Assembly: GCA_019247795.1 (NCBI GenBank)
Contig: JAFBAK010000176.1
Coordinates: forward strand, 1-33,413
From: Hyphomicrobiales bacterium
GTDB taxonomy: Bacteria > Pseudomonadota > Alphaproteobacteria > Rhizobiales > Beijerinckiaceae
Length of the DNA: 33,413 nt
Direction of reading: 5' to 3'
Position 1 is the first letter of the stretch. Each line of letters starts with the position of its first letter. Position numbers and translations under genes: made by a program. Positions 6,688-33,127 of this stretch are shown here, piece after piece. The notes beneath the pieces were generated by a model, which saw only the letters and a program-made list of their open reading frames with translations, was not told the DNA's origin and made no database searches.

Positions 6688-7461
6688 ATGACCTCATCTT
6701 CGCCGCCGGCGATTCTAGCCGAAAACCTCACCAAGACCTATGACCGCGTCACCGCCGTGGACGCGCTGAGCTTTCGGGTCGAGACCGGCAGTGTCGTCGG
6801 CCTGCTCGGGGGTAATGGGGCCGGCAAGACCACCACCCTGGCGATGATCATGGGGCTGACGACGCCGACCGCCGGAGCGGTCAAGGTGTTCGGCGCCGAT
6901 ATGGCGCGCGAGCGATGGAAAGTGCTCCACCGGATCAATTTCGAAAGCCCATACGCCGATCTGCCGCACCGGCTGACCGTGCGCCAGAATCTTGTGGTGT
7001 TCGGCAAGCTCTACGGCGTGCCCAAATTGAAGACGCGCATCGAGGAGCTCGCCGAGGCTCTCGACCTCACGCAGTTTCTCGATCGTCGCACCGGGCAGAT
7101 TTCGGCCGGCCAGAAGACGCGCGCCGCACTCGCCAAAGCGCTCATCAACGAGCCCGACCTTTTGCTTCTCGACGAGCCGACCGCCTCGCTCGACCCCGAC
7201 ACGGCCGATTGGGTGCGTGGCCATCTCGAGGAGTTCCGCCGCCGTCGCCGCGCAACCATCCTGCTCGCTTCCCACAACATGGGCGAGGTCGAGCGACTCT
7301 GCGACCGCGTCATCATCATGCGAACCGGCCACATCGTGCACAATGAGCCACCCGATGCACTGATTGCCCGCTACGGTCGCGAGACGCTCGAGGAAGTGTT
7401 TCTCGACGTGGCGCGCGGCCGGAGCGCCGGTGCGCGGGTGGAGAGCATGGCGGCGCCATGA
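6688..7461 (+). CDS. ABC-2 type exporter, ATP-binding subunit
   Basis: This 257-residue ATPase has Walker A GGNGAGKT (residues 41-48), Walker B LLLLDEPT (158-165), a D-loop SLDPD and an H-loop SHNM. The signature is ISAGQ (138-142) rather than LSGGQ, and the Q-loop region reads INFESPYADLPHRLT, with no glutamine at the usual place. From memory both changes mark a known subfamily of ABC-2 exporters, so they do not imply inactivity. The ATG at 6688 is chosen because the conserved domain starts a few residues later; an ATG at 6616 would add 24 unconserved residues. The gene overlaps the permease by 4 bases (ATGA), showing translational coupling. The substrate is unknown. Confidence 0.88.
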   Translation: MTSSSPPAILAENLTKTYDRVTAVDALSFRVETGSVVGLLGGNGAGKTTTLAMIMGLTTPTAGAVKVFGADMARERWKVLHRINFESPYADLPHRLTVRQNLVVFGKLYGVPKLKTRIEELAEALDLTQFLDRRTGQISAGQKTRAALAKALINEPDLLLLDEPTASLDPDTADWVRGHLEEFRRRRRATILLASHNMGEVERLCDRVIIMRTGHIVHNEPPDALIARYGRETLEEVFLDVARGRSAGARVESMAAP

Positions 7462-8312
7462 ACGACGCGCCGACCCGCTCCGATTCGATGGCGCCGCCCC
7501 TTCGCTCCGCTGCACTCGATTTCTCCGCCGCGCGCGTCATGGCCATGATCCAGAGGCACCTCTACCTTTTGGGCTCATCGCCCGTGCGCCTCATCGACCT
7601 CGCCTATTGGCCGACCGTCCAGCTCCTGACCTGGAGCTTCCTTCAGCTTTACGTGGGCCGCACCTCGCAATTGCCGGTGCTCGCCGCCGGAACACTGATC
7701 GGCGGCATTCTCCTCTGGGACGTGCTGTTTCGCGGCCAGCTCGGTTTCTCGATGAGCTTTCTCGAGGAGGTATGGTCGCGCAATCTCGGCCATCTCCTGA
7801 TGAGCCCGTTGCGGCCTAGCGAGTTCGTCGCCTCGCTGATGATCATGAGCATTCTTCGGTTGATGATCGGCCTCGTACCGGCCGTGCTGATCGCCACGAC
7901 CTTTTTCGGCTTCGATATCAAGACGCTGAGCTTCGCGATCCCATTCCTCTTCGTCAACCTCATGCTGACCGCCTGGAGCGTCGGTCTCGTCACTTCCGGT
8001 CTCATCCTGCGAAACGGGCTTGCGGCTGAAACCATCGCCTGGAGCGCCATGTTCGCGATGATGCCCTTCGCCTGCATTTCCTATCCGGTCTCGACCTTGC
8101 CCGCCTGGCTCCAGCCGATCGCCTGGACCTTGCCGCCGACTTACGTCTTCGAGGCGATGCGCGCCATGCTGATCGCCAAGACCTTCCGTCTCGACCTCCT
8201 GATCGAGTCGCTGGCGCTCAATCTCGTGTGGATCGCGCTCGGCGCCTTCGCGTTCCGGGCGCTGCTCGCGAGCGCGCGGCGCGCGGGCTCATTGCTCTCG
8301 ATGGGGGAGTAG
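7458..8312 (+). CDS. ABC-2 type exporter, permease subunit
   Basis: The 284-residue membrane protein has a cytosolic N-terminus and about six hydrophobic segments, among them LAAGTLIGGILLWDVLF, LMIGLVPAVLIATTFFGF, IPFLFVNLMLTAWSVGL and LALNLVWIALGAFAFRAL. The segment PFACISYPVSTLPAWLQ followed by LPPTYVFEAMR is the typical ABC-2 (NodJ/DrrB-like) loop before the last helix. Its ATG overlaps the end of the ATPase gene, so the two form one transporter. Candidate cargo includes lipids, polysaccharide precursors or drugs; nothing in the sequence decides. No accessory membrane-fusion gene is present. Confidence 0.87.
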   Translation: MNDAPTRSDSMAPPLRSAALDFSAARVMAMIQRHLYLLGSSPVRLIDLAYWPTVQLLTWSFLQLYVGRTSQLPVLAAGTLIGGILLWDVLFRGQLGFSMSFLEEVWSRNLGHLLMSPLRPSEFVASLMIMSILRLMIGLVPAVLIATTFFGFDIKTLSFAIPFLFVNLMLTAWSVGLVTSGLILRNGLAAETIAWSAMFAMMPFACISYPVSTLPAWLQPIAWTLPPTYVFEAMRAMLIAKTFRLDLLIESLALNLVWIALGAFAFRALLASARRAGSLLSMGE

Positions 8313-8403
8313 TCCCTTCGCAGCCAGCGATGCGACAACGAATTTTTAGCCTCTCGCGTGTCACAATTCTGCAAAGCGGCTCTCTGGAAAATGCAGAGCT
8401 CTT

Positions 8404-8418
8404 TGTTGCAATGCGACA
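8404..8418. promoter_or_regulatory. Inverted repeat, candidate PhaR-type operator upstream of phaZ
   Basis: TGTTGCA-A-TGCGACA is a near-perfect inverted repeat (6 of 7 positions pair around a central A). It lies 86 bases before phaZ and overlaps a likely -35 box. TGC/GCA-rich dyads are the known targets of PhaR, the repressor that senses PHB granules in alphaproteobacteria. A further copy of the half-site TGCGACA occurs at 8331-8337. The match to PhaR is inference, not proof. Confidence 0.45.
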
Positions 8419-8433
8419 TTGAGGCTCTATCTT
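8406..8433 (+). promoter_or_regulatory. phaZ: Candidate sigma-70 promoter for phaZ
   Basis: TTGCAA (8406-8411) and TATCTT (8428-8433) are separated by 16 bases, close to the housekeeping consensus, within the 191-base gap between the ABC permease and phaZ. The -35 element falls inside the inverted repeat at 8404-8418, as expected for a repressed promoter. Confidence 0.35.
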
Positions 8434-8503
8434 GTCATTAAGCAGGCGGCCTCCGCGCAAGAACGCGGCGTATTCGTCCGCAATAAAAGTTTGGGGTCGC
8501 TCG

Positions 8504-9787
8504 ATGGAATTCTCTTACTTCCTCCATGAAGCCTCGCTCGCTCTGATCGGCCCGGCCAGGGCGGCTACGGAGGCCGCTCGCATTTTCTTTGAAAACCCTG
8601 CTAATCCAGCATCTTGGACGCCTTTCGGTCGTTCCGTAAGCGCCGCCTGCGATGTCTTCGAGCGAAGCACGAGGCGTTATGAAAAACCGGAATTCGGCCT
8701 GACCTCCACCCGGATCGGCGGGGAAAAAGTGGCCGTCAGCGAGGAAATCGTGTGGCAGCGTCCTTTCGGCCGCCTCATCCATTTCGCGCGTGCGCTTCCC
8801 GCCTCACATCCGAAACAGCCCAAAATTCTTCTGGTTGCCCCGATGTCCGGCCACTACGCGACCTTGTTGCGCGGCACGGTGGAGGCATTTCTCCCTCGCT
8901 ACGAGGTGTTCGTCACCGACTGGTCGGATGCGCGGATGGTGCCGCTCACCTCTGGGCATTTCGGGTTCGACGACTACGTCGATTACGTGATCGAGATGCT
9001 CCGCCATCTGGGGCCGAACACGCATGTAATCGCGGTGTGCCAGCCATCCGTGCCGGTCTCTGTGGCGGTTGCGGTGCTCGAAGCCGCGAAGGACCCCGTG
9101 TCACCAACCTCGATGATCCTGATGGGGGGGCCGATCGATACGCGCGAGAGCCCGACCGCCGTCAATGTGCTCGCGCAAGAGCGCGGCATCGAGTGGTTCC
9201 GGCGCCATTGCATCACGCGCGTGCCCTTCCCCTATCCCGGCATGATGCGTGAGGTTTACCCGGGCTTCCTGCAGCTTTCGGGATTCATGGCGATGAATCT
9301 CGATCGCCACATCTCAGCCCATTGGGATTATTATAAAAATCTCGTCCAGGATAATGGCGATTCTGCCGAGAAGCATCGTGAATTCTACGACGAGTATCTC
9401 GCCGTGATGGACCTCACCGCCGAATTTTACCTCGAGACGGTCGACCGCGTTTTCGTGCGGCACCTCCTGCCGAAGGGGCAGATGAGATATCGCGGCAAGG
9501 CCGTCGATCTCGCCGACATCCGCAAAACGGCCTTGATGACGATCGAAGGCGAGAATGACGACATTTCAGGGGTGGGACAGACGCAGGCGGCGCAGCGCCT
9601 CTGCGTCAACATTCCGGCCGAAAAGCGGGTCCACTATTTGCAGAAGCGTGTCGGCCATTATGGGGTGTTCAACGGCTCGCGTTTCCGCAGCGAGATCGTG
9701 CCACGGATCGACGACTTCATCCTCGCCCAGGAAGAAGCGCAAGCCGCTGAAAAAATTGAGATTCCTCGATTGAAGCGCGCGTCGTGA
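8504..9787 (+). CDS. phaZ: Intracellular polyhydroxyalkanoate (PHB) depolymerase
   Basis: This 427-residue protein matches the PhaZ1-type intracellular depolymerases, which degrade native PHB granules to 3-hydroxybutyrate or its oligomers. Visible marks are YFLHEASLALIGPARA at the N-terminus, LLVAPMSGHYATLLRGTVE, the cysteine nucleophile in VCQPS (C179), the aspartate region EGENDDISGVGQT (D352/D353) and the histidine in VGHYGVFNG (H385). These correspond to C183, D355 and H388 of the Cupriavidus necator enzyme. There is no signal peptide, as expected for a granule enzyme. ATG at 8504 has GGGG about 8 bases upstream and starts directly at the conserved N-terminus. No PHB synthase or phasin is in the window, so the gene is unlinked from the rest of the PHA system here. 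Confidence 0.93.
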   Translation: MEFSYFLHEASLALIGPARAATEAARIFFENPANPASWTPFGRSVSAACDVFERSTRRYEKPEFGLTSTRIGGEKVAVSEEIVWQRPFGRLIHFARALPASHPKQPKILLVAPMSGHYATLLRGTVEAFLPRYEVFVTDWSDARMVPLTSGHFGFDDYVDYVIEMLRHLGPNTHVIAVCQPSVPVSVAVAVLEAAKDPVSPTSMILMGGPIDTRESPTAVNVLAQERGIEWFRRHCITRVPFPYPGMMREVYPGFLQLSGFMAMNLDRHISAHWDYYKNLVQDNGDSAEKHREFYDEYLAVMDLTAEFYLETVDRVFVRHLLPKGQMRYRGKAVDLADIRKTALMTIEGENDDISGVGQTQAAQRLCVNIPAEKRVHYLQKRVGHYGVFNGSRFRSEIVPRIDDFILAQEEAQAAEKIEIPRLKRAS

Positions 9788-12650: not shown

Positions 12651-14054
12651 TCAATGCCCCAAGGCCTTGACGATCTCTTCGGTCACCTTTTTTGCGTCGC
12701 CGAAGAGCATCATGGTGTTGTCGCGGAAGAAGAGCTCATTCTCGACGCCCGCATATCCAGAACCCATGCCGCGCTTGACGAAAAGCACCGTCTTGGCATT
12801 CGCGACATCGAGAATGGGCATGCCGTAGATCGGTGATTGCGGATCGGTCTTGGCGGCGGGGTTCGTCACGTCGTTGGCGCCGATCACGTAGGCGACATCG
12901 GCTTGCGCAAATTCCGAGTTGATGTCCTCGAGCTCGAAGACTTCGTCATAAGGCACATTCGCCTCCGCGAGCAGCACATTCATATGGCCCGGCATGCGAC
13001 CGGCGACGGGATGGATCGCATAGGAGACTTCGACGCCTTCCTTCTTCAAGAGATCGGCCATCTCGCGAAGCGCGTGCTGGGCCTGCGCCACCGCCATGCC
13101 GTAACCGGGCACGACGATCACCTTCGAGGCGTTCTTCATGATGAAGGCCGCGTCATCCGCCGAGCCCTGCTTCACCGGACGCGCCTCGCCGGCGCCCGCC
13201 GCGGGGCCTGAAGTCTCGCCCCCGAAGCCACCGAGAATGACCGAAATGAAGGACCGGTTCATTCCCTTGCACATGATGTAGGAGAGGATGGCGCCTGAGG
13301 AGCCAACGAGAGCGCCGGTGATGATCAGCGCGAGATTCCCCAAGGTGAAGCCGATGCCAGCCGCAGCCCATCCCGAATAGGAATTGAGCATCGAGATCAC
13401 GACCGGCATGTCGGCGCCGCCGATCGGGATGATCAACAACACACCGAGCGCGAAAGAGATCAGCACGATCAGCCAGAAGGCGGCATGGCTCGTGGTGACG
13501 ACGAAGAACACCGCGATCACGAGAAGCGCCCCCGCCAGCGCGATGTTGATCACGTGCCGCTGCGGCAGAAGAATGGGTTTGCCCGACATGCGGCCGTCGA
13601 GTTTGAGAAAGGCGATGATCGAGCCGGTGAAGGTGATGGCGCCGATGGCGACGCCGATCGTCATCTCGATGAGAGCCTCGGGACGGATCTCGGTGGCATC
13701 CCCGATGCCGAAGGCTGCGGGCGCATTGAGAGCGCCTGCCGCCACGAGCACCGCCGCGAGCCCGACGAGCGAGTGAAAGGCCGCGACGAGCTGCGGCATG
13801 GCCGTCATCGGCACGCGCCGGGCCACGAAGGCGCCCACGCCTCCGCCGATCGCGATGCCGATGATCACCAGCAACCACCCGAAAACCCCTGACGGCGGGG
13901 CGATGAGCAGCGTGGTGACGACCGCGATCGCCATCCCGATCATGCCGAAACGGTTGCCCTGACGCGATGTCGTCGGATGCGAGAGGCCGCGCAGGGCCAG
14001 AATGAAGAGGACGCCGGCGATGAGGTAGAGGATGTTGGCCAGAGAGGCGCTCAT
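12651..14054 (-). CDS. pntB: NAD(P) transhydrogenase subunit beta
   Basis: The 467-residue product contains a large membrane domain (eight or nine segments in residues 1-260, including NILYLIAGVLFILALRGLSHP, GAFVARRVPMTAMPQLVAAFHS and MLNSYSGWAAAGIGF). The C-terminal NADP(H)-binding domain III has VIVVPGYGMAVAQAQH, YAIHPVAGRMPGHMNVLLAEA, YVIGANDVTNPAA and VLFVKRGMGSGYAGV. With PntAA and PntAB it couples proton entry to reduction of NADP+ by NADH. It begins 7 bases after pntAB and is the last gene of the operon. The length and motifs are full and canonical. Confidence 0.97.
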   Translation of the reverse strand: MSASLANILYLIAGVLFILALRGLSHPTTSRQGNRFGMIGMAIAVVTTLLIAPPSGVFGWLLVIIGIAIGGGVGAFVARRVPMTAMPQLVAAFHSLVGLAAVLVAAGALNAPAAFGIGDATEIRPEALIEMTIGVAIGAITFTGSIIAFLKLDGRMSGKPILLPQRHVINIALAGALLVIAVFFVVTTSHAAFWLIVLISFALGVLLIIPIGGADMPVVISMLNSYSGWAAAGIGFTLGNLALIITGALVGSSGAILSYIMCKGMNRSFISVILGGFGGETSGPAAGAGEARPVKQGSADDAAFIMKNASKVIVVPGYGMAVAQAQHALREMADLLKKEGVEVSYAIHPVAGRMPGHMNVLLAEANVPYDEVFELEDINSEFAQADVAYVIGANDVTNPAAKTDPQSPIYGMPILDVANAKTVLFVKRGMGSGYAGVENELFFRDNTMMLFGDAKKVTEEIVKALGH

Positions 14055-14061
14055 GAGGGTC

Positions 14062-14508
14062 TCAGCCCTTCTTCTTGTACATCGCGAGCATGCGCGCCGT
14101 GACGAGGAAGCCGCCGAAGATGTTGACGCTCGCCAGCATGAGCGCCACGAAACCGAAGATGCGCGCGTAGGGGCTTGCGCCTGCCTGAGCCGCGAGGCTC
14201 ACGCCGACCGCGAGCAAGGCGCCGACCACGATGACCGAGGAGATGGCGTTGGTGACCGACATGAGCGGCGTGTGCAAGGCCGGGGTCACCGACCAGACCA
14301 CATAGTAGCCGACGAAGATCGCGAGGACGAAGATCGCGAGGCGAAACACCGTCGGATCGACCGCCCCTCCGGTCGTCGCTGCCAGCGCATGCCCGAGTGC
14401 GTCCGAGGCCTGGCCGGCATAGGCCTGCGCGGCCTCCGCAGCTTCGCGGGAAGCATCGGCGGCGGCCCGCGCCCGCTCGAGCGCCTCAATGGGCGAGAGA
14501 TTGGCCAT
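14062..14508 (-). CDS. pntAB: NAD(P) transhydrogenase subunit alpha part 2 (membrane part)
   Basis: This 148-residue protein has an N-terminal helical, alanine-rich lead (residues 1-45, [20 protein letters not shown]) that is longer than in minimal PntAB proteins, then three or four membrane segments: [36 protein letters not shown] and [18 protein letters not shown]. The motif [18 protein letters not shown] is the conserved transhydrogenase signature lining the proton path. The ATG at 14508 overlaps the pntAA stop codon by one base (TGATG), so translation is coupled. A longer open frame upstream runs inside pntAA and is not used. Confidence 0.94.
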
Positions 14509-15668
14509 CAGGCTTCTCCGGTCGTTGCAGCGGCCTTGGGCTTGAAGTGCGGATGCACAATCGCGCCATCGCGCGTGAGCAAGGTCGCCTTGACGAGTTC
14601 GTCGTCCCATTTGACGGCGAGTGATTTCGCGGCCTTGTCGACGAGCGTCTCGACGAAGGCGAAGAGATTACGGGCGTAGAGGGCCGATGAGCTGGCCGCG
14701 AGACGCCCGGGCATATTGGCATGGCCCACGATCTTGACCCCATTCTCAGTGACCACCGTCTCGTCGAATTTCGCACCCTCGACATTGCCGCCGCGCTCGA
14801 CCGCGAGATCGATGATCACGGAGCCGGGCCGCATGCTCGCCACCATGGCCGACGAGACAAGCCGCGGCGCGGGGCGGCCCGGAATGAGCGCGGTCGTGAC
14901 CACGATGTCCTGCTTGGCGATGTGGGAGGCGACGAGCTCGGCCTGCTTGGCCTTGTAGGCGTCCGACATCTCCTTGGCGTAGCCGCCCGCGGTTTCCGCG
15001 TGCTTGAATTCCTCGTCCTCGACCGCGATGAATTTCGCGCCGAGCGACTCGACCTGCTCCTTCGCGGCCGGACGCACATCGGTCGCGGTGACGACGGCGC
15101 CGAGCCGCCGCGCCGTGGCGACCGCCTGAAGGCCCGCGACCCCGGCACCCATGATGAAGATGCGTGCGGCCGGCACCGTTCCGGCAGCCGTCATCATCAT
15201 CGGGAACGCGCGGCCATATTCGGCGGCCGCATCGACCACGGCGCGATAGCCGGCGAGGTTGGCTTGGCTCGACAACACGTCCATGACCTGCGCTCGGGTG
15301 ATGCGCGGCATCAGCTCCATGGCGAAGGCATCGACGCCGGCCTGCGCCATCTGCCGCACCGCCTCCTCCTGGCCATAAGGATCCATGATGGCGATGACGA
15401 GCGCGCCTTTTTTCATTTGCGCCAGCTCCTCGCCGGAGGGGCGGCGCACTTTCAAGACGGCATCGGCGTCGGAGAGCGCCTCGCTCGCGGATCGGGCGAT
15501 CGTGGCGCCCGCGGCCTCGTAGTCCTTGTCGAGAAAACCCGAGGCGGATCCCGCGCCCGTCTCGATCCTCACGGTCGCGCCAAGCCCCGCAAGCTTCTTC
15601 GCCGTCTCGGGCGTGATCGCGACACGCGGCTCGGCCGAAGGGTCCTCCCGCGTCGTCCCGACGATCAT
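14508..15668 (-). CDS. pntAA: NAD(P) transhydrogenase subunit alpha part 1 (NAD-binding domain)
   Basis: The 386-residue soluble subunit is domain I of proton-translocating transhydrogenase and resembles alanine dehydrogenase. Visible parts are [24 protein letters not shown] split by two short motifs at the N-terminus, the [20 protein letters not shown] block, the Rossmann loop [20 protein letters not shown] (near residue 175), and [14 protein letters not shown]. It binds NADH and passes hydride to domain III of PntB. The split alpha subunit (separate AA and AB) is the usual alphaproteobacterial form. The gene begins 7 bases after the small oxidase-subunit-like gene. Confidence 0.96.
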
Positions 15669-17626: not shown

Positions 17627-19477
17627 TCACCCCATCTCCTCGAGCTCGACGATCATGCGCTCGATGAGGGAGAGCCCGGCTTCCCAAAAAGTGGGGTCCC
17701 CGGCGTCGAGCCCGAAGGGCGCGAGGAGTTCGCGGTGATGCTTCGTGCCGCCGGCCCTCAGCATATCGAAATAGGCCTCGGCGAATCCGGGATGCGCCTT
17801 CTCGTAAACCGCGTAAAGCGAGTTCACGAGGCAATCACCGAACGCGTAGGCGTAGACATAGAAAGGCGAATGAATGAAATGGGGGATGTAGGTCCAGAAG
17901 GTCTCGTAGCCTTCCCCGAGACGGATCGCGGGACCGAGGCTCTCGCCTTGCACCGAAAGCCAGGTGGTGCAGATCTGGTCGGCGGTGAGTTCGCCCTCCT
18001 TTCGCTTGACGTGAATCTCGCGCTCGAAGGTGTAGAAGGCGATCTGGCGCACGACCGTGTTGATCATGTCCTCGACCTTTTGCGCCAACATCACTTTGCG
18101 CTCGGTCTTGTCCTTCGTCTCGTCGAGCAGTTTGCGGAAGGTGAGCATCTCGCCGAAGACCGAGGCGGTCTCGGCGAGCGTCAGCGGGGTCGGCGCCATG
18201 AGCGCGCCGTTCGGGGCCGCGAGCACCTGATGCACACCATGGCCGAGCTCATGGGCAAGCGTCATCACGTCGCGCGGCTTGCCCTGATAATTGAGCAGCA
18301 CATAGGGATGCGCCGAGGGCACCGTCGGATGGGCGAAAGCGCCCGGCGCCTTGCCCGGACGAACGGGCGCATCGATCCATCTCTCGGCGAAGAAGCGCTC
18401 GGCGATCGCCGCCATCTGTGGCGCAAAGCCGGCATAGGCCGAAAGCACCGTGTTCTTGGCATCGTCCCAGCGGATGGTGCGGTTCTCGACTTTCGGCAGG
18501 GGCGCGTTGCGGTCCCAGAAGTCGAGCGCGTCCTGGCCGAACCAGCGGGCCTTGAGCCGGTAATAGCGGTGCGAGAGGCGCGGATAGGCGGCGCGCACGG
18601 TCGCGACAAGGGCGTCCACCACCTCCGGCTCGACTCGGTTCGAGAGGTGGCGGGCATCGGCCACATCCGCAAAGCCGCGCCAGCGATCCGAGATGTCCTT
18701 GTCCTTGGCGAGCGTGTTGGTGATGAGCGAGAAGGTCCGCAGATTTTCCTTGAAGACTTTGGCGAGCGCCTCGGCCGCGCGCTTGCGGACGGCTCCATCC
18801 GTGTCCTGGAGCTTGTTGAGGGTTGGCTCGAGCGTGAGCTCTTCGCCATCCATATCGAAACGAAGCGCCGCCATGGTCTCGTCGAACAAGCGATTCCACG
18901 CCGAGGCGCCGCTCACCGATTTCTCGAGGAAGAGGCGCTCGAGCTTGTCCTCGAGCTGGTGAGGCTTCTCGCGCCTGATATCCTCGAGCCAGGGCCGGTA
19001 ATGCGAGAGCGGCGCCGTCGCGGCGGCCCTCATCAGCGCGTCGTCGTCGAGCTGGTTGAGCTCGAGCTGAAAGAAGAGCACATGCGTGCCGGCCGCCGTG
19101 AGACGCTCTTGCGTGTCGCCGTAAAGCTTGGCGCGAACGGGATCGCTGGTATCGCCCGCATAGACGAGGCCCACATAGGACATGAGGCGTCCCATGATCT
19201 CGTCGAGGCGCTCGTAACGCGCGATGGCCGCGTGCAGCGCCGTGCTCGCCTTTTCGCCCGAAAGCAGGCTCGAGAGCTTGCCCTGATAGGTCGCCGCGAA
19301 CGCCTTGCTTTCCTCATCCGCGAACGAGAGGTCGCGCCTGAGCTCCGGCGCGTCCATGCCGGGATAGAGGTCGGTGAGATTCCATTCGGGCAAAGAGCCG
19401 AGATCGTCCTTGGACGAGGCGCGCGAAGCGTCCCGCGCGAATGCGCTCATCACGATTTCGTGCGCGCTCATCGGCAT
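17627..19477 (-). CDS. pepF: M3 family oligoendopeptidase F
   Basis: The 616-residue zinc peptidase has HELGH at residues 409-413 and a downstream glutamate in TLAETASVFGE as third ligand. It also has WNLTDLYPG near the N-terminus and C-terminal FIHSPFYVYAYAFG, a strongly conserved PepF block. The family degrades oligopeptides of about 7-20 residues in the cytosol. ATG at 19477 is preferred; two in-frame ATGs follow (19471 and 19450) and the open frame extends to 19684 without homology-like sequence. The gene diverges from the sigma-54 regulator gene across a 308-base gap. Confidence 0.92.
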   Translation of the reverse strand: MPMSAHEIVMSAFARDASRASSKDDLGSLPEWNLTDLYPGMDAPELRRDLSFADEESKAFAATYQGKLSSLLSGEKASTALHAAIARYERLDEIMGRLMSYVGLVYAGDTSDPVRAKLYGDTQERLTAAGTHVLFFQLELNQLDDDALMRAAATAPLSHYRPWLEDIRREKPHQLEDKLERLFLEKSVSGASAWNRLFDETMAALRFDMDGEELTLEPTLNKLQDTDGAVRKRAAEALAKVFKENLRTFSLITNTLAKDKDISDRWRGFADVADARHLSNRVEPEVVDALVATVRAAYPRLSHRYYRLKARWFGQDALDFWDRNAPLPKVENRTIRWDDAKNTVLSAYAGFAPQMAAIAERFFAERWIDAPVRPGKAPGAFAHPTVPSAHPYVLLNYQGKPRDVMTLAHELGHGVHQVLAAPNGALMAPTPLTLAETASVFGEMLTFRKLLDETKDKTERKVMLAQKVEDMINTVVRQIAFYTFEREIHVKRKEGELTADQICTTWLSVQGESLGPAIRLGEGYETFWTYIPHFIHSPFYVYAYAFGDCLVNSLYAVYEKAHPGFAEAYFDMLRAGGTKHHRELLAPFGLDAGDPTFWEAGLSLIERMIVELEEMG

Positions 19478-19785
19478 TATTCTCGGCACGATCCTCACCT
19501 CGTTTTGATGTCGCGGAATGGCGAACCACCTGGAAAGCGGGTCCGCCGACGCGGGATAAAATAACGGGAACGTCAAAGCACGGAGCCAGTGTCGGACCCG
19601 GGCCGCGAAACCCATCGCCCATATTGCCCAGCAAGGCTTGCGGTTCAACTCGCGAGGCGCATCGATCGCCTGTCGATAACGCATCGAGGCGAGTGCGAGG
19701 ATTAGCGTTAATCGGACCTTTACCGGTGCGTTGCAGGATCGTCCCGAAACGAAATTCGAAGAACGACAAACCGTCGCGGAGCCCG
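19478..19785. promoter_or_regulatory. 308-base divergent intergenic region between pepF and the sigma-54 regulator
   Basis: The region should hold both promoters. I see an inverted repeat GATTA-GCGT-TAATC at 19700-19713, 72 bases before the regulator start, and two copies of CGCATCGA (around 19658 and 19680). No consensus -24/-12 or clear -35/-10 pair stands out. I find no small gene in it. Confidence 0.4.
19700..19713. promoter_or_regulatory. Short inverted repeat upstream of the response regulator
   Basis: GATTA (19700-19704) and TAATC (19709-19713) flank GCGT. It is a dyad of 5-base arms in an AT-rich pocket of GC-rich DNA, positioned as an operator would be. Autoregulation by the downstream Fis-type protein is possible but unproved. 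Confidence 0.3.
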
Positions 19786-21279
<1,494 letters not shown>

Positions 21280-25568: not shown

Positions 25569-27671
25569 ATGGCCGTCGTCGACGTGAAGCGCAGGGGCGA
25601 TATCGCCTTGGTGACCCTCGATCATCCTCCCGTGAATGCCTTATCTCAGGCGGTGAGAAGCGGCCTCGAGGACGCGGTCAAGACGCTCGGCGCCGACCCG
25701 GCCGTGAAGGCGGTCGTGATCACGGGTGCGGGGCGCTGCTTCTCGGCGGGCGCCGACATCACAGAATTCGGCGGCGGGCCCCGGAAGCCCCCGCTATATC
25801 AGGTCATCCACGACATCGAGGCGTTGCAGAAGCCCGTTGTCGCCGCGATGCATGGCACCTCGCTCGGCGGCGGCTTTGAGGTCGCGCTCGGCTGCCATTA
25901 CCGCATCGCCGATACCAAGGCGAAAATGGGTCTTCCCGAGGTCAAGATCGGCCTCATCCCGGGCGCCGGAGGCACGCAGCGCCTGCCGCGCGCGATCGGC
26001 GTCACGGCCGCGCTCGACATGATCGTCTCCGGAAACCCGATCGATGCCGAAACCGCGCGCCGGGCCGGTCTCGTCGACCGCATCGCCAAGGGCGATCTTG
26101 TCGAGGATGCGCTTGCCTATGCGCGCGAGCTCGTCGCTTCGGGCGCAAAGCCGCGACGTTTATCGGAGAAGCCGGTTCCCATGGCGGGCGTGGCTCAGGA
26201 TGTCTTCGAAAAGAAACGATCGTCTCTCGGCCGCCATCCGAGCGGCAAGGTCGCGCCGAATGCCTGCATCGACGCGGTCGAGGCGGCGACCAAGCTCCCC
26301 TTCATGGACGGCATGAAGCACGAGCTCGAGTTGTTCATGCGGTGCTACGCAAGTCCGGAGGCGAGAGCGCTCTGGCACGTCTTCTTCGCCGAGCGTGCCG
26401 CTGCCGTAATTCCGGACATCGGCAACGACGTGAAGGCGCGCAAGATCGAGACTGTCGGCGTGCTGGGCGCCGGCACCATGGGGCAGGGCATCGCCATGAG
26501 CTTCGCCAATGCGGGGTTTCCGGTGACCATCGTCGAGAACGCCCAGGAAGCGCTCGATCGGGGCATCGCCAAGATGCGCGAGACGTATGAATCGGCGGCG
26601 GCGCGCGGACGAATGACCCCGGATGAGGCGAAAGCGCGCTTCGCGCGGCTCGCGCCATCGCTTTCACTCACCGACCTCAAGGACAAGGACCTCGTCATCG
26701 AGGCCGTGTTCGAAAACATGAAGATCAAGAAGGAGATCTTCGGCAAGCTCGATGCGCTCGCAAAGAAGGGCGCGATCCTCGCCACCAACACCTCGACACT
26801 CGATGTCGACGAGATCGCGCTTGCGACCACGCGGCCGGGCGACGTGCTCGGCATGCACTTCTTCAGCCCCGCCAACATCATGCGCCTTCTCGAGGTGGTA
26901 CGGGGCGCGAAATCCGAGAAGGATGTGATCGCGACCGCCATGAGCCTCGCCAAGCGCATCGGCAAAGTCGCGGTGCTTGCCGGCGTCTGCGACGGCTTCA
27001 TCGGTAACCGCATGGTCGCAGCCTATGGCGCCGAAGCGCAGGCCCTCGCGCTCGAAGGCGCGACGCCGTCGCAAGTCGACAAGGCGGTCACCGATTGGGG
27101 CCTGGCCATGGGTCCCTTCGCGATGAGCGATCTTGCCGGCATCGACGTCGGTTGGCGCATTCGTCAGGAGCGGCCGCTCACGAACGAGCAGAAGATGCGC
27201 TACGCAGTGAATGACAAGATCGCGGAGCTTGGTCGCTTCGGCCAGAAGACGGGGCGCGGCTTTTATTTCTATGCCAAGGGCGAGCGCACGCCGAAGCCCG
27301 ACCCCGAAGTCGAAGCGATGTATGCCGAAGAGGCAAAGCGCCAAGGCATTGCGCGCCGTGCGATCGGGCCCGAGGAGATCGTCGAGCGCCTGCTTTTTCA
27401 GCTCGCCAACACGGGCGCCCAGCTTCTCGACGAAGGTATTGCGCTGCGCGCCAGCGATATCGATACGGTCTACGTGAACGGCTATGGCTTTCCGGCCTGG
27501 CGCGGCGGGCCGATGTGGTCGGTCGACGAGATCGGGTTGAAAACCGCGGTCGACAAGATGCAAGCCTACGAGAAGATGCATGGCCCGCGTTTCACGCCGG
27601 CGAAGCTGCTGGCGCGGCTCGCACGCGAGGGCAAGCGTTTCAACGATCGCAAGAGCAACGAGGGTAAGTGA
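25569..27671 (+). CDS. Bifunctional enoyl-CoA hydratase / 3-hydroxyacyl-CoA dehydrogenase
   Basis: This 700-residue two-domain beta-oxidation enzyme has an N-terminal crotonase domain with both catalytic glutamates, E104 (GGGFE) and E124 (LPEVKIGL), and the oxyanion segment [10 protein letters not shown]. The second half is an NAD-dependent dehydrogenase: Rossmann loop [14 protein letters not shown] (near residue 295), catalytic-type histidine in [17 protein letters not shown], and GFIGNRM. The pair hydrates trans-2-enoyl-CoA and oxidises the product to 3-oxoacyl-CoA. The architecture (about 700 residues) is of the peroxisomal-MFE/FadJ-like kind. The thiolase start follows the stop codon by 2 bases, so the two are certainly co-translated. 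Confidence 0.93.
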
Positions 27672-27673
27672 TC

Positions 27674-28858
27674 ATGAGCCGGGCTGTCATCGTCTCGACC
27701 GCAAGAACGCCGATCGGCAAAGCCTATCGCGGCGCCTTCAATGACACGACAGGGCCGACCCTGGCGGCGCTGGCCCTGCAACACGCGACGAAGCGCGCCA
27801 AGGTCGACCCCGTGGAGATCGAGGACGTTGTCGTCGGTTGTGCCCTGCAGCAGGGCACGACAGGTGGGAATTTCGCGCGCCAGACGGTCATCCGCGCCGG
27901 CTTTCCGGTGAGCATTGCCGGAACGACAATCGATCGCCAATGCGCCTCGGGCCTGCAGGCGATCGCGGTCGCGGCACGCTCGATCATGCATGATGGCGTC
28001 ACCATCGCGGCCGCGGGCGGAGGCGAATCGATCAGCCTCGTGCAGAACGAGCACGCCAACAGCTTCCGCAATCGCGACGAGACGATCCTCGCGACGAAGC
28101 CCGAGCTCTATCTGCCGATGATCGACACGGCCGAGGTCGTCGCGGCGCGCTACAAGATCTCGCGCGAGGCACAAGACGCCTTTGGGCTCGAGAGCCAGCG
28201 CCGCACCGCCTCCGCGCAGCAGGGGGGACGCTTCTCCGACGAGATCATTGCGGTCGAGACCGAAATGGCCGTCACCGACAAGGCGACCGGCGCGACGAGC
28301 AAGGCAAAAATCACCTTGCGCAAGGATGAGGGCAACCGGCCGGACAGCACGCCCGAAGGGCTCGCGGCGCTCAAGCCCGTACGTGGCGAGGGCAAGACCA
28401 TCACGGCCGGCAATGCAAGCCAGCTCTCGGACGGCGCCTCGATGTCGATCCTGATGGACGAGAAGCTCGCCGAGAGGCGCGGGCTTTCTCCGCTTGGGGT
28501 GTTCAAGGGTTTCGTAGCGGCAGGTTGCGAACCTGACGAGATGGGGATCGGCCCGGTCTTCGCCGTGCCGCGCCTTCTCGAGCGACATGGGCTGAAGATC
28601 GACGATATTGATTTGTGGGAGCTCAACGAGGCGTTCGCGGTGCAGGTGATCTATTGCCGCGACAAGCTCGGCATCGATCCCGAAAAGCTGAACGTCAATG
28701 GCGGTGCCATCGCCATCGGTCACCCTTACGGAATGTCGGGGGCGCGCCTTACGGGCCATGCGCTCCTCGAGGGCAAAAGGCGCGGCGCCAAACATGTCGT
28801 CGTGACGATGTGCGTGGGTGGCGGCCAAGGTGCGGCCGGTCTCTTCGAGATCGCCTGA
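27674..28858 (+). CDS. Acetyl-CoA C-acyltransferase (thiolase)
   Basis: The 394-residue thiolase has nucleophile C90 in DRQCASG, the NEAFAVQ block, H350 in GHPYGMSG and C380 in [11 protein letters not shown], a full catalytic set. It opens [20 protein letters not shown]. It cleaves 3-oxoacyl-CoA with CoA, the last step of beta-oxidation, or condenses acetyl-CoA in reverse. ATG at 27674 has GAGGG about 9 bases upstream; an in-frame GTG two codons earlier overlaps the previous stop and is less likely. Its partner is the upstream bifunctional enzyme. Confidence 0.94.
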
Positions 28859-28872
28859 GCGTCGCCGAAGAG

Positions 28873-29646
28873 ATGAGCAGGCTCTTCGATCTTTCGGGCA
28901 AGGTGGCGCTCGTCACCGGCTCCTCGCGCGGCATCGGCCGCGCCATCGCGGAAGAATGCGCGCGCGCCGGCGCCAAGGTGGTGATCTCCTCGCGCAAGCT
29001 CGAGGCGTGTGAAGAGGTGCGCGACATTCTGAAGGCGCAAGGCCATGACGCCATCGCCATGGCGGCGCATGCCGGCTCGAAGGAGCAGCTCGCATCCTTG
29101 GTGCAGCAGACGGTGTCCTGTTACGGACGTCTCGACATTTGCATCGCCAACGCGGCTGTGAACCCGTTCTTCGGTTCGCTCACCGACGCTCCGGACGACG
29201 CCTTCGAGAAGACCATGGCGACCAATGTGAAAGCCGTGTGGTGGCTCGCCCAACTGGCGAAGCCCCATCTTGTCGCGAGTCGCGAGGGAAGCTTCATCGT
29301 CATCTCCTCGATCGCCGCGCTGCGGGGCACGTCGCTGCTCGGGGTCTACGGCATCTCGAAGGCGGCGGAGACGGCTTTGGTGCGCAACCTCGCGGTCGAG
29401 TGGGGACCTTTGGGGATTTGCGTGAATGCGATCGCACCAGGCCTCGTCAAGACGGACTTCGCTCGCGCTCTGTGGGAGAACGAGGCGGCGCGCAAGAAGC
29501 GGGAAGCGGAAACGCCGTTGCGGCGCCTCGGCGAGCCGCTCGACATCGCTGGTGTGGCGCTCTTTCTCGCCTCGCGGGCATCGCGCTTCGTCACGGGACA
29601 GGTGCTCGTCGCGGATGGCGGCGTAACGATCGGCGGTTCAGGCTGA
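28873..29646 (+). CDS. SDR-family oxidoreductase (DHRS4/LvaD-like position)
   Basis: The 257-residue classical short-chain dehydrogenase has the cofactor loop TGSSRGIG (15-22), ANAAVNPFFG in place of the usual NNAG, and the catalytic S146, Y159 and K163 (YGISK). The NAAVNPFFG block recalls the DHRS4 group of carbonyl reductases. S40-R41 after the second beta strand (VVISSRK) suggests NADP(H). It is 14 bases after the thiolase gene. In the levulinate operon of P. putida an SDR (LvaD) reduces 4-oxo to 4-hydroxy acyl-CoA beside a kinase and an ACAD, the same neighbours as here. The substrate remains inference. Confidence 0.88.
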   Translation: MSRLFDLSGKVALVTGSSRGIGRAIAEECARAGAKVVISSRKLEACEEVRDILKAQGHDAIAMAAHAGSKEQLASLVQQTVSCYGRLDICIANAAVNPFFGSLTDAPDDAFEKTMATNVKAVWWLAQLAKPHLVASREGSFIVISSIAALRGTSLLGVYGISKAAETALVRNLAVEWGPLGICVNAIAPGLVKTDFARALWENEAARKKREAETPLRRLGEPLDIAGVALFLASRASRFVTGQVLVADGGVTIGGSG

Positions 29647-29761
29647 TGAAGGAAGGCGGCGCCGACATCGAAGGCACGGAGGCGTGTTTTTGCCATTGGC
29701 GGCGGAGCCGCTCGCACGATCCGCGCACTTGCGCTCCGCTGGCCGGGGGAGCCACCATCTC

Positions 29762-30826
29762 ATGAGCCTGACGCCAGTCCTCATCGAGCCGCTGCCGCAG
29801 CATCGTTTCGACGAAGTCGAGCTCGATCGCTATCTCGGCGGGCATGTCGATGGCTACCGCGCCGGTCGGCCCATCGTTCGCCAATTCCAGGGCGGCCAGT
29901 CGAACCCGACCTTCCTGCTCGAGACGCCGAATGCGACGTATGTGCTGCGCAAGAAACCGCCCGGCAAGCTGCTCGCCTCCGCACACATGATCGAGCGCGA
30001 ATACAAGGTGCAGAAGGCGCTTGCGGGCTCCCCCGTGCCGGTCGCGCCCATGCTCCTCCTGTGCGAGGACGCAAACATCATCGGCACGCCCTTCTATCTC
30101 ATGGGATATGTGGCCGGCAGGGTGATCCCGACAGCCGATCTTCCGGACCTTGCGCCGATGGAACGCCGTGGCATCTACCGCTCGCTCGTGGAAACGCTGG
30201 CGGCCCTCCACCAGGTCGATTGGCGCGAAGTTGGGCTCGGCGATTTCGGCCGCCCTGACAATTACGCGGCACGCCAGATCGACCGCTGGACCAAGCAATA
30301 CGCCGCCTCGAAGACCGATGACATCAAGGAGATGGAGCAGCTCTCCGCCTGGCTCGTGGCGCATCTGCCGACAAGGGCCGCGTCCTCCATCGTGCACGGC
30401 GATTTCAGGGTGGGTAACACGATCATTCATCCGAGCGAGCCCCGTCTCGCGGCCGTTCTCGATTGGGAGCTCGCGACGATCGGCGATCCGCTCGCCGATC
30501 TCGCCTATTTGTGCATGGCCTACGACATGCCGCCGGGCGGCCCGGGCGTGAGCGGCGGACTTCGCGGCGCAAAGCTTTCCGACCTTGGCGTGCCGAGCGA
30601 GGACGAGGTTCTGTCCGCCTATGCCCGCGCAACAGGCCGCCCCGGCATTCCTCACTGGGACTTCTACAAGGCCTTGGCTTTTTTCCGCATCGCCGCGATC
30701 GTGCAAGGCGTCTACGCCCGCGGGCTCGCCGGGAATGCCGCCGACAGTTCCGCCGTGCAGCAGGGCGAGCGCGTGCGCATGATGGCGCAAACCGGTTGGG
30801 AGATCGCTTCGGCGGCCAAGAACTGA
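29762..30826 (+). CDS. APH-fold phosphotransferase, LvaA/ACAD10-11 kinase-like
   Basis: The 354-residue kinase-fold protein has a phosphate loop region QFQGGQSNPTFLL, ATP lysine in YVLRKKP (K64/K65), the catalytic loop VHGDFRVGN (H212, D214, N219) and the metal-binding LDWELATIGDP (D234). This is the aminoglycoside-phosphotransferase fold, but of the subgroup fused to an acyl-CoA dehydrogenase in animal ACAD10/ACAD11 and represented by LvaA. Those kinases phosphorylate the 4-hydroxyl of 4-hydroxyacyl-CoAs. Antibiotic resistance is unlikely in this context. ATG at 29762 is preferred, with GGGGGAG about 12 bases upstream. The ACAD gene follows after 72 bases. No small LvaB-like gene lies beside it. 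Confidence 0.87.
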   Translation: MSLTPVLIEPLPQHRFDEVELDRYLGGHVDGYRAGRPIVRQFQGGQSNPTFLLETPNATYVLRKKPPGKLLASAHMIEREYKVQKALAGSPVPVAPMLLLCEDANIIGTPFYLMGYVAGRVIPTADLPDLAPMERRGIYRSLVETLAALHQVDWREVGLGDFGRPDNYAARQIDRWTKQYAASKTDDIKEMEQLSAWLVAHLPTRAASSIVHGDFRVGNTIIHPSEPRLAAVLDWELATIGDPLADLAYLCMAYDMPPGGPGVSGGLRGAKLSDLGVPSEDEVLSAYARATGRPGIPHWDFYKALAFFRIAAIVQGVYARGLAGNAADSSAVQQGERVRMMAQTGWEIASAAKN

Positions 30827-30898
30827 TGCCGCGAGGGAGTCAAGCTCGCTTAAGCTTCACCGATGGGGCAGGCTTCACGAGAGTAACGGGAACGCACC

Positions 30899-32152
30899 AT
30901 GGATTTCGCATATTCGCCGAAGACGAAGGCGCTGCAGGAGAAGCTCCTCGCCTTTATGGAGGAGCATGTCTATCCGAACGAGGAGAAGCTTCATCCGGAG
31001 CATGAGGGCGAGGCGCGGTGGCGCGAGATCCCTGCGCTGCTCGAGGAGCTTAAGGAGAAAGCTCGCAAAGCCGGATTATGGAATCTGTTCCTGCCGGAGA
31101 GCGATCTCGGGGCCGGCCTCACCAACCTCGAATATGCGCCGCTCGCGGAAATCATGGGGCGTTCTCCCGTCGCTGCCGAGATCTTCAATTGCAGCGCACC
31201 CGATACCGGCAATATGGAAGTGCTTGTGCGCTATGGGACGAAGGCTCAAAAGAAGGAATGGCTCGAGCCCTTGCTCAAGGGCGAGATCCGTTCGGCCTTC
31301 GCCATGACCGAGCCCAATGTCGCCTCCTCCGACGCTACGAATATTGCAACCTCGATCACGCGCGACGGCGACGAATACGTGATCAACGGGCGCAAATGGT
31401 GGACCTCGGGTTCGGGCGACCCCCGATGCCGCATTCTCATCGTCATGGGCCAGACGGACCCGAAAAATCCGAGCCCGCACAAGCGGCAATCGATGATCCT
31501 CTGCCCCCTCCCTCATGAGGGCGTGACGATCATCCGCCCCTTGACGATCTTCGGCTTCGACGATGCGCCCCATGGCCATATGGAGGTGAATTTCGACAAT
31601 GTGCGCGTGCCTGCCTCGAACATGCTGCTCGGCGAAGGGCGCGGCTTCGAGATCGCGCAAGGCCGCCTCGGACCGGGACGCATCCATCATTGCATGCGCA
31701 TCATCGGAGCGGCCGAGCGCGCGCTCGAACGGCTGTGCCGGCGCCTCAAGGAGAGGGTCGCCTTCGGTGCGCCGATCGCGACCCAGACGGTTTGGCTCGA
31801 GCGCATCGCCGAATCGCGCTGCCTCATCGATCAGGCCCGCCTGCTGACCTTGCAGGCCGCCTACAAAATGGACACGGTCGGCAACAAGGAGGCGCGCGCC
31901 GACATCGCCATGATCAAGGTCGCCGCAGGAAGCATGGCCTGTCAGGTGATCGATTGGGCGATCCAGGGGTTCGGCGCTGGCGGCTTCACCGATCGCATCA
32001 TGGCTCGCGCCTATGCCTATGCGCGCACCTTGCGCATGGTGGACGGCCCCGACGAGGTGCACCGCAATCAAATCGCTAAGCTCGAATTGCGCAAATACGG
32101 TGCCCAAGATGCGCATCGAACCGGCGGCGACCCCATCGTGCGGATGACGTAG
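30899..32152 (+). CDS. Acyl-CoA dehydrogenase of the ACAD10/11 (LvaC-like) type
   Basis: The 417-residue flavoenzyme shows [31 protein letters not shown], the block [20 protein letters not shown], and the C-terminal [11 protein letters not shown] and [16 protein letters not shown]. The [13 protein letters not shown] and VASSDATN blocks are those of the ACAD10/ACAD11 subgroup, not of ordinary medium-chain dehydrogenases. In that subgroup the enzyme can eliminate phosphate from 4-phosphoacyl-CoA and give an enoyl-CoA. Start ATG at 30899 opens [16 protein letters not shown], the family start. Its gene follows the kinase gene directly, so the bacterial pair is the split form of the animal fusion. 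Confidence 0.93.
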
Positions 32153-32245
32153 TACGTTTCGCGAAATCCGCGAGCCGCGCCTGCAGCGGAGAAGCACGAG
32201 TGGCCGGCCTCGACGAGCGTGGGCTCATTTCCAAAGGTTCAAGCC

Positions 32246-33067
32246 ATGCAAACGCGCGAAATCCTTTACGACGTGAAGGACCACGTCGCCACCCTCACGC
32301 TCAATCGCCCCGATAAGCTCAATGCCTGGACCCAGGTGATGGAGCAGGAGGTGCGCTCGGCGATGGAGGCGGCCGCGACCGACGACGCGGTGCGAGCGAT
32401 CATCGTCACGGGTGCCGGTCGAGGCTTTTGCGCCGGCGCCGATCTCGACCGGATGAAAGCGTCACTCGAAAGCGGCACACGCGGAACCTTGGCACGTCAT
32501 AAAGCCGCGACCGCGGGCCTCGACGCGATCGAAGTGAATTACCAGCAGCGCTTCAGCTATCTCTGGCGTGTGCCAAAGCCGATCATCGCCGCGATCAATG
32601 GCCCCGTCGCCGGAATCGGCTTTTGCTTCGTGCTGTTCACAGATCTGCGCTACATCGCTCCATCCGCGAGAGTCACGACTGCTTTCGCGCGACGCGGTCT
32701 CATTGCCGAGCATGGAATGTCCTTCATGCTGCCCCGTCTCATTGGAATCAGGCCGGCGCTCGACCTTCTCTTTTCGGGGCGCATCATCGACGGCACCGAG
32801 GCGGCGCATCTGGGTCTTGCGGATCTCCTTCCCGATGACGGCTTCTTGCCCGCCGTATCCGAGAAGGCGCGTGCGATCACGTTGAACTCGTCGCCACGTT
32901 CGACGGCGGTGATGAAACGCCAAGTCTATGACGATCTATTCCGCAACCTTGCCGAATCATGGAAAGCGGCGGACGAGGAGATGTATGCCTCCTTCGAAAG
33001 CGAGGACTTCAAGGAAGGCGTCGCCCACTATTTCGAGAAGCGCGCGCCGCACTTCACCGGGAGGTAG
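32246..33067 (+). CDS. Crotonase-fold protein (enoyl-CoA hydratase-like) lacking both hydratase glutamates
   Basis: The 273-residue crotonase-fold protein has LNRPDKLNAW, the oxyanion segment FCAGADLDRM (61-70) and PKPIIAAINGPVAGIGF. At the two catalytic positions of enoyl-CoA hydratase I read C127 (in AGIGFCFVLFTD) and G151 (in FARRGLIAEHG) instead of glutamate. E155 lies nearby but out of register. The reaction may thus be isomerisation, hydrolysis or another crotonase reaction. An AAAGG sits 7-8 bases before the ATG at 32246; a GTG at 32219 is less likely. It follows the ACAD by 93 bases and is the last gene of the CoA block. Confidence 0.88.
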   Translation: MQTREILYDVKDHVATLTLNRPDKLNAWTQVMEQEVRSAMEAAATDDAVRAIIVTGAGRGFCAGADLDRMKASLESGTRGTLARHKAATAGLDAIEVNYQQRFSYLWRVPKPIIAAINGPVAGIGFCFVLFTDLRYIAPSARVTTAFARRGLIAEHGMSFMLPRLIGIRPALDLLFSGRIIDGTEAAHLGLADLLPDDGFLPAVSEKARAITLNSSPRSTAVMKRQVYDDLFRNLAESWKAADEEMYASFESEDFKEGVAHYFEKRAPHFTGR

Positions 33068-33127
33068 CTCATCGCGAGCAACTGGAAGGGTTGAGAGCGG
33101 ATATTATATTGTCCAAACTGGCCTTGC

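Follow-up and report, generated by a model that had tools for sequence, protein, structure and literature searches.

A predicted ACAD10/ACAD11-type operon for 4-hydroxyacyl-CoA breakdown in a Hyphomicrobiales bacterium, with a DHRS4-like dehydrogenase beside the kinase

The gene run and its kinase–dehydrogenase pair

The window analysed here is a whole contig (JAFBAK010000176.1, 33413 bases) of the 4.95-Mb draft genome (431 contigs) of a Hyphomicrobiales bacterium. At its right end six genes separated by short gaps lie on the + strand (25569-33067), a spacing that points to co-transcription. Within this run the three consecutive genes that the initial annotation had singled out (28873-32152, + strand) encode a short-chain dehydrogenase/reductase (SDR), a kinase of the APH fold and an acyl-CoA dehydrogenase (ACAD). 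Sequence comparison strongly supports the placing of the kinase and the ACAD in the ACAD10/ACAD11 group, far ahead of other families, and the operon very probably feeds 4-hydroxyacyl-CoA, and probably also 4-oxoacyl-CoA, into β-oxidation. The phosphorylation-dependent mechanism is already published and is not new: the operon is an ordinary member of that pathway, to which the present analysis adds one testable new inference, on the SDR and its mammalian relative DHRS4.

The gene for the predicted 4-hydroxyacyl-CoA kinase (29762..30826, + strand; best start ATG 29762, stop at 30826) encodes 354 residues with a match to PF01636 (E 4.1e-54). Its best match in the Protein Data Bank (PDB; phmmer) is 3dxp with 357 bits, followed by mouse ACAD11 (309), 9o56 (188) and then nothing above 51. 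Over the kinase domain of mouse ACAD11, 154 of 339 positions are identical (45.4%). The motifs HGDFRVGN (residues 212-219) and DWE (234-236) had been read correctly in the initial annotation, as had the subgroup block of the ACAD. Residues R176, D220, N225 and D240 of mouse ACAD11 align with R171, the catalytic D214, N219 and D234. PMC12440821 names R86, R176, D220 and N225 as kinase residues, of which R86 and R176 contact CoA; D240, the aspartate of DWE, is not among them.

The ACAD (30899..32152, + strand; 417 residues; PF00441, PF02770, PF02771), predicted to act on 4-phosphoacyl-CoA, is closer still to its mammalian counterpart: mouse ACAD11 scores 453 and 451 bits, human ACAD11 448 and 4hr3 447, and the next match falls to 134. 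It is identical to the ACAD domain of mouse ACAD11 at 209 of 392 positions (53.3%). The subgroup block spans residues 255-267 and ends in HCMR at 264-267 (H264, C265, M266, R267). By alignment R626, R631, H634, R637 and D753 of mouse ACAD11 are kept as R256, R261, H264, R267 and D382; these are the five ACAD residues named in PMC12440821, where non-conservative changes at R626, H634 and R637 are the most damaging to the ACAD step. Published mutants thus identify residues kept in the window pair as essential ones. The pattern R-x4-R-x2-HCMR recurs in 152 of the 154 ACAD frames above 300 bits among the fetched loci (not de-duplicated), and the two exceptions differ only at the cysteine, reading HAMR in locus L112 and HTMR in L133. 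None of the ten further ACAD matches in the genome exceeds 112 bits with the window ACAD or has the motif.

Phylogeny gives the same placement. In the ACAD tree, built without LvaC and ACAD10, the window protein and mouse ACAD11 share a 45-row group with a support of 100 in the Shimodaira–Hasegawa-like approximate likelihood-ratio test (SH-aLRT), and the ten other ACADs of the genome lie outside it. In the kinase tree the window kinase, ACAD11, 3dxp and 9o56 form one group (support 77), and five other APH proteins of the genome sit on very long branches. These trees are of a quick type with SH-aLRT support only, and long branches were flagged in the kinase, ACAD and SDR trees alike. The initial annotation had described the two genes as the split form of the animal ACAD10/ACAD11 fusion, and identity, retained residues and trees all uphold this; the phylogenetic check that it proposed bears out the grouping with ACAD11, apart from other APH and ACAD proteins, in trees that hold no LvaA, LvaC or ACAD10.

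The kinase–ACAD pair is common and is no peculiarity of the window. Among 349 genomes of the phylum (thresholds 1e-90 for the ACAD, 1e-20 for the kinase) the ACAD was found in 109 and the kinase in 111, that is, in all 109 ACAD genomes and in two more. In 199 genomes of the order (1e-90 and 1e-30) the ACAD was found in 57, every one of which also has the kinase, itself found in 88. The 57 genomes hold 74 ACADs, with a kinase within 500 bases for 19 and within 5 kb for 32. These counts are not independent, since the genomes share ancestry; the two samples partly overlap, and the multi-genome searches scored 5 to 48 candidates per genome. On a Variovorax paradoxus plasmid (L132) one frame at 6735-9059 holds both a kinase match and an ACAD match (R-x4-R-x2-HCMR, 171 bits), with no ACAD gene annotated before the kinase; it is possibly a natural ACAD–kinase fusion with its parts in the opposite order from ACAD11, or else the ACAD is truncated.

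Upstream of the SDR gene, as initially annotated, lie a fadB-like enoyl-CoA hydratase/3-hydroxyacyl-CoA dehydrogenase (25569..27671, + strand; 700 residues; PF00378, PF02737, PF00725) and an acetyl-CoA C-acyltransferase, or thiolase (27668..28858, + strand; PF00108, PF02803), which shares its first 4 bases with the end of the fadB-like gene and whose score against NCBIfam PRK07108, 598 bits, is slightly below the cut-off of 615. A gene missed at that stage, for a crotonase/enoyl-CoA hydratase family protein (32246..33067, + strand; 273 residues from ATG 32246; PF00378), closes the run. Two FadB-like genes were found in the genome, the second long match being 33% identical to the copy in the run, and the latter may be dedicated to the 4-hydroxyacyl-CoA route. 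The possession of its own fadB and thiolase genes had been listed as a difference from the lva system of Pseudomonas putida. The genes are indeed present, but the linkage is not confined to the window: L059 (Burkholderiales), L112 (Rhodospirillales), L131 (a Bosea plasmid) and L229 (a genome of the order) likewise combine the pair with a fadB-like gene of 49-51% identity and a thiolase of 54-65%. In L231 the pair has a fadB-like neighbour and no thiolase match, and in L112, where the ACAD reads HAMR, no SDR of the window/DHRS4 group adjoins the pair.

The arrangement recurs in a relative, and its genes are under selection. A contig of a relative (L039, a Hyphomicrobiales metagenome-assembled genome) aligns to window positions 27219-33070 with 82% DNA identity over 5.9 kb and keeps the same gene order from the fadB-like gene onward. 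Ratios of non-synonymous to synonymous substitution (dN/dS) between the two are 0.065 for the thiolase, 0.088 for the SDR, 0.091 for the kinase, 0.041 for the ACAD and 0.112 for the crotonase, so these five are intact genes under purifying selection, and chance is excluded. In L039 a minus-strand frame directly follows the crotonase gene, and the run therefore probably ends there.

The DHRS4-like dehydrogenase

Against the PDB, the product of the SDR gene (28873..29646, + strand; 257 residues; PF13561, PF00106) scores highest with DHRS4 of pig (190 bits) and human (187), ahead of the next group at 150, and in the genome search it is 41% identical to DHRS4 over 244 positions. With pig DHRS4 as the query it is the genome's single match at E <= 1e-40 among the 48 of 71 candidates scored. 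Residues S146, Y159 and K163 occupy the catalytic positions, and SSRK at residues 39-42 matches the SSRK of DHRS4, a sequence that in SDRs presumably indicates NADP(H)-type cofactor use. DHRS4 itself is a mammalian NADP(H)-dependent retinol/carbonyl reductase. A quick tree places pig DHRS4 and the window SDR in one 29-row group, at an SH-aLRT value of 90 that is not a firm one. SDRs from Burkholderiales and related clusters (about 36-40% identity; e.g. L059, L069 and L077) are look-alikes in BLAST that the tree assigns to a different clade, and they were not counted as DHRS4-type.

The order sample holds 39 window-type SDRs (E <= 1e-60, the window's own included), and 23 of them lie within 10 kb of an HCMR-bearing ACAD. 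When the 57 genomes of that sample chosen for carrying the ACAD were searched with pig DHRS4, the best 38 of 61 matches were exactly the window-type SDRs, scoring at least 171.7 bits against at most 166.1 for the others; 23 of these 38, as against none of the 23 weaker matches, have the ACAD within 10 kb. The phylum sample, here 289 genomes taken as a subset of the 349, contains DHRS4 matches at 1e-45 in 48 genomes, and 44 of the 48 bear the ACAD (base rate 109/349). At least 27 of 61 matches there lie within 10 kb, start to start, of the ACAD or the kinase and at least 23 near both, where a rough estimate expects about 1% by chance. Such co-occurrence could be inflated by large genomes with many fatty-acid genes, adjacency less so. 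In this sample, however, the weaker matches stand near the pair as often (at least 11 of 23) as those of at least 171.7 bits (at least 16 of 38), and one genus (g39) contributes five of the 14 genomes in which the 16 strong linked SDRs occur. The association therefore extends to a broader group of SDRs, to which both the window SDR and DHRS4 belong. DHRS4-like SDRs are thus recurrent neighbours of the kinase–ACAD pair, as are related SDR clades, and this observation is new here.

Gene linkage and spacing make interconversion of 4-oxo- and 4-hydroxyacyl-CoA the most likely function of the SDR. The chief alternative, a serious contender that falls somewhat short of even chances, is that the kinase and the ACAD act as described and the SDR plays no part at C4, being some other dehydrogenase of β-oxidation or of carbonyls. 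The SDR family is versatile, further clades of it adjoin the pair in other bacteria, and the remaining 16 of the 39 window-type SDRs in the order sample (about 40%) have no such ACAD within 10 kb, which counts against a dedicated C4 role. The contrast seen in the order sample between close and weaker DHRS4 relatives speaks for such a role, yet as a control it fails in the phylum sample: the link is not special to the closest relatives of DHRS4, a result that raises the chances of the alternative and lowers those of DHRS4 as a third enzyme of the pathway. Against the alternative, the run already has a 3-hydroxyacyl-CoA dehydrogenase domain in its fadB-like protein, and the recruitment of several SDR clades beside the pair suggests that a dehydrogenase is repeatedly needed there.

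A C4 role of the bacterial SDR leads to a broader proposal, which is tentative and rather doubtful at present: DHRS4 would supply the third enzyme missing from the ACAD11 pathway, in bacteria and animal peroxisomes alike, and would interconvert 4-oxo- and 4-hydroxyacyl-CoA or invert the 4S form via the 4-oxo form. The three-enzyme module would then stand together in bacterial operons, and in mammals its genes would be scattered and the proteins would meet in the peroxisome. According to PMC8919083, ACAD11 is peroxisomal with a peroxisomal targeting signal of type 1 (PTS1), and Dhrs4 is listed among the PTS1 proteins. In pig adipocytes DHRS4 is reported to raise β-oxidation, for which PMC12071078 suggests retinoid signalling or NADPH flux as the cause. 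The titles and abstracts found, mostly from non-subscription literature, contain no acyl-CoA role for DHRS4 and no link to 4-hydroxy- or 4-oxoacyl-CoA.

Two kinase lineages and the levulinate pathway

The initial annotation regarded the lack of the small partner LvaB as a departure from the lva system. LvaB is presumably a DUF6285 protein (PF19802). None of the six proteins of the run matches this family in Pfam, nor was a match found in the genome by a search that was positive in 2 of 14 control genomes. The family is present in 29 of the 349 phylum genomes, and in all 30 loci fetched from these 29 genomes a kinase match lies close to it, each best matched by the divergent type of kinase. In the kinase tree 21 such DUF6285-linked kinases form a separate group with support 99. 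LvaA is 29% identical to the kinase domains of ACAD10/11 (PMC11342911), which fits its membership of the DUF6285-linked group. The window kinase thus appears to belong to the ACAD11/3dxp lineage, and not to the DUF6285-linked one equated here with LvaA/LvaB, and would most likely work as ACAD11 does, without a small partner. The absence itself stands, but it is ordinary for an ACAD11-type kinase; only one of the two kinase lineages is accompanied by DUF6285, so it is no sign of an incomplete pathway, and an incomplete lva operon was rejected since DUF6285 accompanies another kinase clade in 30 of 30 loci. A literature search for DUF6285 found no paper, and one for phosphotransferases and lactone catabolism gave none further on the route among the papers listed.

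The DUF6285-linked loci include a second type of operon, seen in L221, L222, L226 and L228 (genomes G259, G353, G239 and G212), which combines an SDR, a divergent HCMR ACAD, a divergent kinase and DUF6285. Its ACADs are 35-37% identical to that of the window and carry the block RLGTARLTHCMR or RLAPARLTHCMR, and its SDRs belong by tree to another clade than the window SDR; it possibly represents a phosphorylation-dependent pathway of its own that acts on a different substrate. In L157, L159, L160, L162 and L163 (genomes G239, G490, G426, G274 and G392) the DUF6285 match lies inside open frames of 455-495 codons. The presence of both DUF6285 and kinase matches in these frames suggests kinase–DUF6285 fusions, parallel to the kinase–ACAD fusion of animals.

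That the operon is itself a levulinate (C5) pathway like that of P. putida is improbable. The three roles of SDR, kinase and ACAD are the same and the ACAD10/11/LvaC motif is present; on the other side, DUF6285 is missing from the genome, the kinase falls in the ACAD11 group, and no protein of the run has a match to a CoA ligase family in Pfam, as initially annotated. The fadB-like gene and the thiolase would moreover suggest chain shortening beyond C5. Least probable by far is an ordinary ACAD next to a kinase for a drug or thiamine, for although the APH fold includes drug kinases and NCBIfam returns weak matches to thiamine kinase (34 bits) and APH(3') (33 bits), these scores are far below the cut-offs of 299 and 205, the whole phosphate pocket is kept in an ACAD that groups with ACAD11 and carries a motif absent from the genome's other ACADs, and no ACAD-bearing genome was found without the kinase.

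Predicted route and comparison with known systems

The chemistry has been established for ACAD10/11 in two papers of 2024 and 2025 (PMC12440821, PMC11342911), one of them also with a bacterial orthologous pair. The 4-hydroxyacyl-CoA, for which the CoA ester is required, is phosphorylated with ATP and then converted in an FAD-dependent step to the 2-enoyl-CoA. 5-deazaFAD does not support the ACAD step, FAD is needed and redox-active even though the reaction is redox-neutral overall (PMC12440821), and an added electron acceptor is unnecessary (PMC11342911). Dehydrogenation, phosphate loss and return of the hydride form a proposed scheme, not a proven one (PMC11342911). The same paper reports about fourfold more product with the R form for the kinase part of ACAD10, and replacement of either ACAD10 half in vitro by the bacterial orthologues with a C6 substrate, 4-hydroxyhexanoyl-CoA. 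Of the route first envisaged for the window, the phosphorylation-dependent 4-hydroxyacyl-CoA core thus holds by homology, and plain elimination gives way to a step that needs redox-active FAD.

For the window operon, homology to these tested enzymes strongly supports the kinase and ACAD steps. The kinase would phosphorylate the 4-hydroxyl of 4-hydroxyacyl-CoA with ATP. On the resulting 4-phosphoacyl-CoA, D382 of the ACAD would take the C2 proton and FAD the C3 hydride; the phosphate, held by R256, H264 and R267, would leave C4, and the hydride would return to the dienoyl intermediate, so that trans-2-enoyl-CoA forms in a reaction that is redox-neutral overall. Chain shortening would then fall to the hydratase/dehydrogenase and thiolase encoded in the run. 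The DHRS4-like SDR would interconvert 4-oxo- and 4-hydroxyacyl-CoA with NADP(H), thereby admitting 4-oxo acids, and perhaps invert the less-used 4S form to R via the 4-oxo form. A CoA ligase would have to be encoded outside the run.

Several points weigh against this route. R86 of ACAD11 is unplaceable: at that number the mouse chain has F and the window kinase Y81, two places past a shared arginine. The support of 77 for the ACAD11-kinase group comes from a quick tree with very long outgroup branches, and the trees hold no LvaA or LvaC. Pairing is looser from the kinase side, 31 of the 88 kinase genomes in the order sample having no ACAD at E <= 1e-90. The run, finally, offers no ligase, transporter or regulator as a hint to the substrate.

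Elsewhere in the window, a gene for a polyhydroxyalkanoate depolymerase family protein (8432-9787, + strand; PF06850, 330 bits) lies about 16 kb upstream of the run, with no link to the operon seen; 4-hydroxy acids occur in some stored polymers. NAD(P) transhydrogenase subunits (12651-15668, - strand; PF02233, PF05222/PF01262) are a possible source of NADPH, and in L132, too, a transhydrogenase gene stands after those for the kinase and thiolase. An NtrC-type response regulator with a sigma-54 interaction domain (19441-21279, + strand) stands about 4 kb upstream of the fadB-like gene, and nothing ties control of the operon to it.

With this locus a bacterial operon joins a pathway that was elucidated in mammals as recently as 2024-2025; the value of the locus is comparative, in that it shows which enzymes stay beside the kinase–ACAD pair. 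It also opens DHRS4, an enzyme known to reduce retinoids and carbonyls, to a concrete test: if the proposal is true, this enzyme, peroxisomal like ACAD11, would have a new job and may interconvert 4-oxo- and 4-hydroxyacyl-CoA.

Among known systems, mammalian ACAD10/ACAD11 (PDB 8v3u, 8v3v, 2wbi) share the catalytic and phosphate-holding residues with the window pair, but there kinase and ACAD form one fused protein, whereas the window has two genes in an operon with the SDR, the fadB-like gene, the thiolase and the crotonase. The bacterial pair of PMC11342911 (kinase Q63VL0 and its ACAD) is split as in the window, and Q63VL0 probably lies near 3dxp, the bacterial kinase structure that the window kinase matches best. 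DHRS4 (PDB 2zat, 3o4r) is the closest solved relative of the window SDR. The lva system of P. putida carries out the same three reactions, 4-oxoacyl-CoA reduction, 4-phosphorylation and conversion to enoyl-CoA (roles as given in PMC9628823), with LvaB and the CoA ligase LvaE; the window run has neither, but brings its own fadB-like gene and thiolase.

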